Positions 38,081 to 40,215 of a stretch of 41,932 bases of DNA are shown here, in pieces. Origin of the DNA: Acidimicrobiia bacterium (GTDB taxonomy: Bacteria; Actinomycetota; Acidimicrobiia; Spongiisociales; UBA5794); contig JASJEG010000050.1 in the NCBI GenBank assembly GCA_030064765.1, positions 1 through 41,932 on the forward strand, read 5' to 3'. The notes beneath the pieces were generated by a model. The model ran no database searches, was not told the DNA's origin, and saw only the letters and a program-made list of their open reading frames with translations. Position numbers and translations under genes: made by a program. Numbering within the stretch: position 1 is the stretch's first letter; each line of letters opens with the position of its first letter.

Positions 38081-40215
38081 GCGCTGACCGTGCCAACGGC
38101 CGCGAGCAACGGACCCGGCGACCGCGGTCACTGCGCCGCAGCCTGGTAATTACGTTCTCGGCGGTTTCGCTCGTGTCGGTAGTGCTGCTGGGAATTCTCA
38201 ACTACTACCAGGCACGCAACCTTCTCACTGAGTCCATCAGTGATCAACTCGTCAACCAGCAAAGGGCAAAGGCGTTGGCGATTCGTAGCGGCATCGAACG
38301 GCTCGAGCAAACGGTCGTTGTAGCCGCACGTAGCCGCGAAGTCATTGAGGGCGTCGTCGAGTTCTCGGCAGCGTTCAGCGAAGCGGACTCGAGCAGTTCG
38401 CTGGAATCTGGTGAGTTGCAGGCTCTGCAGGAAACCTACAACGTCGTTGTCGACGCCATCGCCGAGGCAGGTTTGGATGCTCCGTCCGCTGACGAGTTGA
38501 TCCCCGGCTCCGACGTTGGCCGCTACCTGCAGTATCACTACATCATCGCCAACCCGGCCGAGGACCGCAGCGAGATGGCCAGTGCGCCGGGTGACCAATC
38601 CACCTATGGGGCAGTCCATGCTGCACGTCATCCCGCCCTTGTGCAGCTTCGCGCGCAACTTGGGTTCGGTGATCTGCTGCTGGTCGACCCAGCGGGCAAC
38701 GTTGTCTACTCGACAGACAAGCGACTGGACTACGCCACCAACATGACAGCCGGCCCGTACCGGACGACCGGCGTGGGGGGTGCGGTCACCAACGGGATTC
38801 CGGCCGTTCCTATCGGCGAAGCCGTCTTCGTTGACTTCGAGATCTACTTGCCGGCTGAGGGGAGCCCCTCTCTATTCATCGGTGCCGCGATTCGCAGCGA
38901 GTCCCGTACGGTTGGTGCCCTTCTCGTCGAGGTACCGATCGAGACGCTCAACACCCTGACCGTCGGTCAGGCGAATTGGGAGGAAACCGGCTTCGGCGAC
39001 ACCGGGGAAGTCTATGTCGTGGGGCGCGATCAGCTGATGCGAACAGACTCCCGGTTGTGGATCGAGGATCCTGACGAATACCAGCGTTTGCTGGAGAAGG
39101 AGGACTACGACCCGCAACTGGGCGACCTGATCGCCATCTTCGGCTCGCCCGTTCTGCTGCAGCCGGTCGAATCTGATGCAGTACTGGAAGCCCTGAGTGG
39201 CGAACAGTTCCTCGGCAGGACCAGCAACTATCTCGGGCGGAGGTCGCTCACCTCCGCCGGTCCCGTCGGATCCGATTTGCTCGATTGGGTGGTTGTCGCA
39301 GAGGTTGCGGCAGCCGAAGCCAACGATCCCCTCGGCTCCTATCTGACCAGGATCCTCATCGCCGGTTTGGTCTTGATACCCATCGTTGTCTTGCTTGCTC
39401 TGTTGTTTGCCGACCGCATGACCAAGCCCGTCAAACCTGTGGTCGCGGCGGCGGGTGCTGTCGCCGGTGGCGACCTCAGTACGACTCTGCCAGACCTGGG
39501 TCGGAACGAATTCGGTGATGTGGCCCGCCGCCTCAATCGCCTCACCGCAGCGCTGCGGGAAAGAGAGGAAGCTCTCGCTAGCGAGGAGCAGGAAATCAGA
39601 CGACTGCTTCTCTCTGTGCTACCGGAGCGGCTGGTCGAGGCGTTGCGGAGCGGGGAGCAAGACCTGCCGGACCTTGTCGATACGGCGACCGTCGTCGCCA
39701 TAGATGTCGACGGCCTTGCCGGCGGCGCCGGGATCAGCGAGGAGGCCGGGGTCGAATTGTCGACCGAGCTCTCCGGTCGCATGGAGACGCTCGCCGATCA
39801 CCTCGGAGTCGAGAGAGTACGCTCCTCCTCCGATCAGCATCTCTTTGTGGCCGGGCTCGATACCCCTTCAAGTGCGGCAATGGTCGCCACCGAGTTCGCC
39901 GTCGGGGTTTCGCAGGCGATCGACCAGTTCAGAGACGACCACGCAGTAGAGGTGACCTACAGAGCGGGCGTCAGTGCGGGTCAGCTGATCGCCAGACTGG
40001 TGGCTGCCGACCAGCTGACCTACGGAGTGTTCGGGGATCCGCCGCGTACTGCCTTGGCACTCGCCGGAATTGCTGCCAAAGATCAGATTCTGATCGATTC
40101 AGCAACCGCAGCTGAACTCGACGAATCGTGGGACCTCAAGCCGGCGACCGGGCTCACCGCCCTGCAGGGTGAGCAAGTGTCCGTCATGATCGTCCGCGTA
40201 CCGACCACCAGCTAG
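38077..40215 (+). CDS. Second membrane sensor (dCache-like) - HAMP - class III cyclase-like protein, strongly degenerate
   Basis: Same layout as 34369..36561: GFGDLLLVDPAGNVVYSTDKRLDYATNM, GFGDTGEVYVVGRDQLMRTDSR, HAMP-like KPVKPVVAAAGAVAGGDLSTTLPDLGRNEFGDVARRLNRLTAAL, cyclase-like TVVAIDVDGLAG, VERVRSSSDQHLFVAGL, TYGVFGDPPRTALALAG. ATGA overlap with the channel gene. Confidence 0.86.
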   Translation: MSADRANGREQRTRRPRSLRRSLVITFSAVSLVSVVLLGILNYYQARNLLTESISDQLVNQQRAKALAIRSGIERLEQTVVVAARSREVIEGVVEFSAAFSEADSSSSLESGELQALQETYNVVVDAIAEAGLDAPSADELIPGSDVGRYLQYHYIIANPAEDRSEMASAPGDQSTYGAVHAARHPALVQLRAQLGFGDLLLVDPAGNVVYSTDKRLDYATNMTAGPYRTTGVGGAVTNGIPAVPIGEAVFVDFEIYLPAEGSPSLFIGAAIRSESRTVGALLVEVPIETLNTLTVGQANWEETGFGDTGEVYVVGRDQLMRTDSRLWIEDPDEYQRLLEKEDYDPQLGDLIAIFGSPVLLQPVESDAVLEALSGEQFLGRTSNYLGRRSLTSAGPVGSDLLDWVVVAEVAAAEANDPLGSYLTRILIAGLVLIPIVVLLALLFADRMTKPVKPVVAAAGAVAGGDLSTTLPDLGRNEFGDVARRLNRLTAALREREEALASEEQEIRRLLLSVLPERLVEALRSGEQDLPDLVDTATVVAIDVDGLAGGAGISEEAGVELSTELSGRMETLADHLGVERVRSSSDQHLFVAGLDTPSSAAMVATEFAVGVSQAIDQFRDDHAVEVTYRAGVSAGQLIARLVAADQLTYGVFGDPPRTALALAGIAAKDQILIDSATAAELDESWDLKPATGLTALQGEQVSVMIVRVPTTS

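Follow-up and report, generated by a model that had tools for sequence, protein, structure and literature searches.

Protein B, the product of the third gene in the three-gene operon A-M-B, is read here, at slightly less than an even chance, as a conserved non-catalytic pseudo-cyclase subunit of this cassette; it would likely pair with protein A in a heterodimer that moves the channel protein M by contact and not by a cyclic nucleotide. The window, the whole stretch of 41,932 nucleotides from an Acidimicrobiia bacterium that was analysed, carries the genes on the forward strand with overlapping ends. Gene A (34369..36561) codes for a protein of 730 amino acids with a membrane sensor (partial dCache_1), a TM/HAMP-like region and a class III cyclase-like domain, as assigned with Pfam and AlphaFold; Pfam gave a weak dCache_1 match and a match to Guanylate_cyc with an E-value of 2.7e-25. 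Gene M (36554..38080, 508 amino acids) encodes an MscS-type channel with a C-terminal cyclic-nucleotide-binding-like (CNBD-like) domain, recognized by the Pfam MscS domains and cNMP_binding. Gene B (38077..40215, 712 amino acids) encodes a membrane sensor followed by HAMP and a class III cyclase-like domain, with Pfam matches to HAMP and, at residues 559-689, to Guanylate_cyc (E 3.3e-12). A and M overlap by 8 nt (ATGAGTGA, 36554..36561, + strand), M and B by 4 nt (ATGA, 38077..38080, + strand). A gene for a DUF6069 protein precedes A, and a SulP/STAS transporter gene follows B on the opposite strand. Elsewhere in the window, a second MscS-like open reading frame is present on the minus strand (22839-23768), which lacks a CNBD. 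A and B are paralogous receptors composed of an extracytoplasmic sensor, a TM/HAMP segment and a cyclase-fold domain. The sequence-only reading had dealt with positions 39640-40215, which are residues 522-712 of B; the channel gene lies outside these coordinates, and neither this gene nor its missing ligand motif figured in that reading.

Orthologues were gathered from the order, the class and the phylum. M occurred in 31 genomes of Actinobacteria, most of them Acidimicrobiia, and wherever the contig was long enough, A was located directly upstream and B directly downstream of M on the same strand. Stop-start overlaps of 4 or 8 nt occurred at the A/M and M/B junctions of nearly all cassettes. 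A-M-B is a strict, translationally coupled cassette. No further flanking gene recurred widely among the cassettes examined; most of the additional open reading frames that did recur merely shadow A, M or B on the antisense strand. The class search located the cassette in four families of the class to which the window belongs; in one of these (putatively Ilumatobacteraceae), 13 of 222 genomes had it. Outside the class, two of the four genomes of one genus had it, and it was absent from the remainder of the 397-genome phylum sample. Within that genus, G684 and G745 differed from G475 and G676 in the presence of the cassette (two with, two without), a patchiness that suggests loss, horizontal gain or incomplete assemblies.

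Residues of the cyclase-like domain of B (residues 532-690, 39670..40146, + strand) were placed by aligning B with a mycobacterial adenylyl cyclase in the PDB (5o5k), and a joint alignment of A, B, AC5 and in-genome cyclases agreed with this placement. Three of the ten other Guanylate_cyc loci in the genome were usable as alignment controls, and each of the three carries Asp at metal 1 together with the Asn and the Arg of canonical cyclases. In B, the metal-1 position is taken by Asp543 within AID (39703-39705), the purine-contact Lys position by Arg582 (39820-39822), the metal-2 Asp of the GD motif, which reads SD here, by Asp586 (39832-39834), the adenine-recognition Asp position by Gly650 (40024-40026), the transition-state Asn position by Arg657 (40045-40047) and the transition-state Arg position by Ala661 (40057-40059). 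The substitutions in B described from the sequence alone were thus all present and correctly placed in both alignments. The Arg reported at the Asn position of the first copy is likewise there, as Arg673 of A in WGEAVRVAHF. Among the B orthologues, the adenine-type Asp and the transition-state Asn were missing in 26 of 26 and the transition-state Arg was absent, while the GD position was Asp or Glu in 20 of 27. A metal-1 Asp was kept by only five close relatives, whose B may, by alignment, hold both metal-binding Asp residues without the other catalytic residues.

The cyclase-like domain of A (residues 553-705, 36025..36483, + strand), delimited by alignments and conservation, has retained a different set: Lys597 (36157-36159), Asp601 of the GD motif (36169-36171) and the adenine-type Asp666 (36364-36366), with Arg673 at the Asn position (36385-36387). 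The aligned metal-1 Asp and the transition-state Arg are both missing in A. Across the A orthologues, Asp occurred in the metal-1 column of none, the Asn position was never Asn, and the transition-state Arg was rare. The Asp of ITDG was tried as metal 1 in A; it was discounted because it lies two residues past the canonical alignment position and is itself variable. Lys597 was kept in 27 of 30 orthologues, with Arg in the remainder and a single change on the tree, and Asp666 in 30 of 30 with no change; both belong to the best-conserved columns of the domain, and Asp601 was mostly retained. Arg680, three residues beyond the canonical transition-state Arg, was kept in 26 of 32 rows and inferred to be ancestral; it could serve a bound nucleotide.

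The conservation of Lys597 and Asp666 is an argument for an unlikely alternative, in which A and B form a nucleotide-binding but non-cyclising receptor: within one of the pseudo-sites of the A/B dimer, the two residues would hold an adenine nucleotide, for instance ATP as a signal of the energy state, whose occupancy would modulate gating. This extends to the channel the earlier suggestion that A binds nucleotide and B is the scaffold, which is possible on the residues present. The acidic GD position in most B orthologues also agrees with it, as do the fungal heterodimeric RGCs, in which activity changed ninefold when the non-catalytic site was disrupted (PMC12264004). However, C1 of mammalian AC5 has the same Lys/Asp pair in the half without Asn and Arg, and therefore the pair alone is no proof of nucleotide binding in A; the metal-1 Asp, moreover, is unconserved in A and B.

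The Arg at the Asn position had been taken as a change common to both copies and selected for a function. In the homologue alignments, it was conserved among the B orthologues, whereas it varied freely among the A orthologues. Of 26 genomes, 20 have Arg at position 657 of B, four have Gly, one has Gln and one has Thr; the position ranked 23 of 159 domain columns in conservation and changed three times on the cassette tree with Arg at the root, compared with a median of nine changes per column. At position 673 of A, six of 31 genomes carry Arg and the others T, A, S, D, E, Q, H or G; this column changed 16 times on the cassette tree, against a median of eight, and ranked 134 of 153 in conservation. 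Conservation of an Arg inferred to be ancestral is thus upheld for B. For A, the column is variable with nine different residues, and the proposed shared and selected change therefore fails. Arg at both sites was seen in the window genome and in three genomes closely related to it (L035, L036 and L045/L046, these last two from a single genome), the one observation in favour of a selected function common to both copies; with the A site among the least conserved of its domain, such a function is very improbable. Outside the genus, this reading was rejected for A on the scattered substitutions among the homologues, an outcome that the sequence-only reading had itself named as refuting. The presence of Arg in both copies is best read as a coincidence, restricted mainly to the window genus. 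In B, too, Gly, Thr or Gln at position 657 in six genomes means that Arg657 is not essential to the cassette.

Asp601 of A was lost in four of the scored genomes, and three of these also lacked Arg657 in B. The covariation of the two residues (17/3 versus 1/3, Fisher p 0.035, uncorrected for relatedness) is weak because independent losses are few: of the four genomes scored as lacking Asp601, three belong to one clade. The joint loss is a weak hint of an A/B interface. One clade has Gly or Thr at position 657 of B (L083, L088, L089, L090, L092), and in part of the same clade the Asp of the GD motif of A is replaced by Ser or Ala (L083, L088, L090). The losses at these two aligned positions are possibly a co-loss of an interface contact.

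Both cyclase-like domains are maintained. In comparison with the nearest relative, L035, NG86 estimates put dN/dS of the cyclase domain at 0.14 in B and 0.11 in A, close to the values of the sensor domains of the two proteins; other pairs gave dN/dS of about 0.1 to 0.4, with distant pairs near synonymous saturation and their values not relied upon. The CNBD-like domain of M is under purifying selection as well. AlphaFold models, computed as single chains, had a mean pLDDT of 83.7 for A and 83.8 for B with intact predicted cyclase folds. Compared with solved class III cyclases, the predicted domain of B reached a TM-score of up to 0.85 with an rmsd of about 2-3 Å, and that of A a TM-score by target of up to 0.90; structural matches of the isolated A and B domains mostly had a TM-score by target of 0.76-0.90. 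Judged from these models, the two domains are real cyclase folds and not chance matches. The low dN/dS of the cyclase domains therefore speaks against decay, and together with the intact predicted folds it bears out the view, already taken from the sequence, that the changes are not random decay. That B is the relic of a decaying pseudogene would agree with its divergent cyclase domain, which has lost most catalytic residues, and with a few cassettes with broken frames; against this stand, besides the dN/dS of the closest pair, reading frames that are intact and of full length in most genomes, the conserved overlaps, the conserved Arg657 and the kept fold, and we regard it as scarcely credible. 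The broken frames comprise a split of A and B in L047, a split of A in L094 and, in L093, an M gene interrupted by an in-frame TGA, and could be assembly errors or decay.

In class III cyclases, one subunit supplies both metal-binding Asp residues and its partner the residues for base recognition and for the transition state (PMC12264004, PMC4886424). By alignment, none of the pairings A/A, B/B and A/B brings together the two metal Asp residues, the Lys/Asp pair and the Asn/Arg pair. A lacks the pair of metal-binding Asp residues within a single subunit, an NxxxR motif is missing with no Asn in any A or B orthologue, and the base-selecting Lys/Asp pair is present in A (K597, D666) and replaced in B (R582, G650). 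Every complete cassette contains two unequal halves, whose residue sets fall short of one full site. The Asn is dispensable in some active cyclases, and Rv1900c has His (PMC4886424); the loss of the Asn alone is therefore no proof of inactivity. From the residues as a whole, A and B appear to be sensory pseudo-cyclases that have lost catalysis.

The CNBD-like domain of M (37673..37924, + strand; Pfam and alignment) deviates in a comparable manner. The canonical phosphate-binding cassette is FGE[LIV]AL...R, and the CNB domains on bacterial mechanosensitive channels read GEIALLTGGPRTATVRA (PMC2246266). The cassette of M reads FGLMG... instead of FGE...PR(T/S)A (full reading FGLMGRSDTWPQPPRTVAIS), with Leu425 (37826-37828, + strand) replacing the Glu. 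This Glu was missing in 30 of 30 M orthologues, and the Arg was unconserved; the CNB domains L107, L108, L110 and L112 of the same genome retain the GE motif. With a mean entropy of 1.94 bits versus 0.66 for the pore helix, the CNBD-like domain is the least conserved part of M. It contains an invariant Asp-Cys pair (D443, C444 in the numbering of alignment A1). CNB domains can evolve other ligands. From its cassette, the domain of M appears to be without cNMP binding.

These observations bear on the reading that the gene order itself invites, an active cNMP-gated channel system with unorthodox residues, in which A or A/B would make a cNMP that M senses via a non-canonical pocket. The order cyclase, CNBD channel, cyclase fits an autonomous module of this kind, A matches Guanylate_cyc well at the E-value given above, and active cyclases with non-canonical residues exist (PMC4886424). 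Such a system is nevertheless improbable: A and B have both lost, or do not conserve, all three of metal-1 Asp, Asn and Arg, the cassette Glu is missing from all M, and the lost sites in A drift as expected of unused positions, with the 16 changes at A673 as an example.

With no messenger synthesis and no canonical messenger sensor, physical coupling is the simplest remaining explanation. For the contact-driven pseudo-cyclase cassette, we propose the following sequence of events. A and B probably form a heterodimer, most likely through a pseudo-symmetric pairing of the cyclase-fold domains with A in a C1-like and B in a C2-like role. Binding of a ligand at the sensor would be transmitted by the HAMP segment and set the dimer of cyclase-fold domains in motion, and this movement would reach the cytoplasmic CNBD-like ring of M by protein contact. 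Arg657 of B probably fills the dead active site and perhaps forms a salt bridge to the GD residue Asp601 of A. More tentatively, at a somewhat lower probability than for the subunit role of B, a whole second-messenger module, composed of two receptor cyclases and a cyclic-nucleotide-binding channel, may have lost its messenger in the ancestor shared by all cassettes; its receptors would now act on the channel by direct contact, and the cyclase and CNB folds would serve as mechanical coupling domains.

Parts of this arrangement are known from other systems. The bCNG channels (CNB family 'Channel_Bact', PMC2246266) resemble M in that a CNB-fold domain comes after the MscS pore and the beta domain. 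They carry the family motif given above; M differs in the cassette Glu and Arg and is locked between two receptor pseudo-cyclases. Actinobacterial membrane class III adenylyl cyclases such as the mycobacterial enzymes Cya/Rv1625c and 5o5k place the cyclase fold behind a membrane segment, as A and B do, and were among their best PDB matches, but A and B are without the catalytic residues. A division of residues between unequal halves is found in C1/C2 of the mammalian tmACs and in fungal NeoR/RGC1. A resembles mammalian C1, with Lys and Asp present and Asn and Arg absent, and NeoR, which has no NxxxR motif (T455, K459) and shows no activity by itself (PMC12264004), sets a precedent for a degenerate partner. 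Both tmAC C1/C2 and NeoR/RGC1 retain one complete site, whereas such a site is missing from A/B, with a conserved Arg of B in place of the Asn. In Pycsar (the soluble, active pyrimidine cyclase PycC and a CNB effector), a cyclase-like gene likewise lies beside a membrane effector with a CNB-fold domain; A-M-B differs by its membrane sensor receptors, its MscS effector and its incomplete catalytic set. PADLOC matches to Pycsar were marginal (E 5e-3 to 2e-5), with none for B, and membership was ruled out by these scores, the membrane receptors and the missing catalytic residues. Within the open-access literature, with most subscription papers outside this scope, a description of an MscS-CNBD/cyclase operon was not found.

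Among pseudoenzymes, the kinases are well studied and the cyclases little. In A-M-B, the would-be makers of a messenger and its would-be receiver are all without their motifs, yet under purifying selection, in one conserved operon. If the proposal is true, the cassette would be a compact and testable example of how chemical signalling is converted into a physical chain, and possibly an MscS channel under the control of extracellular sensors.
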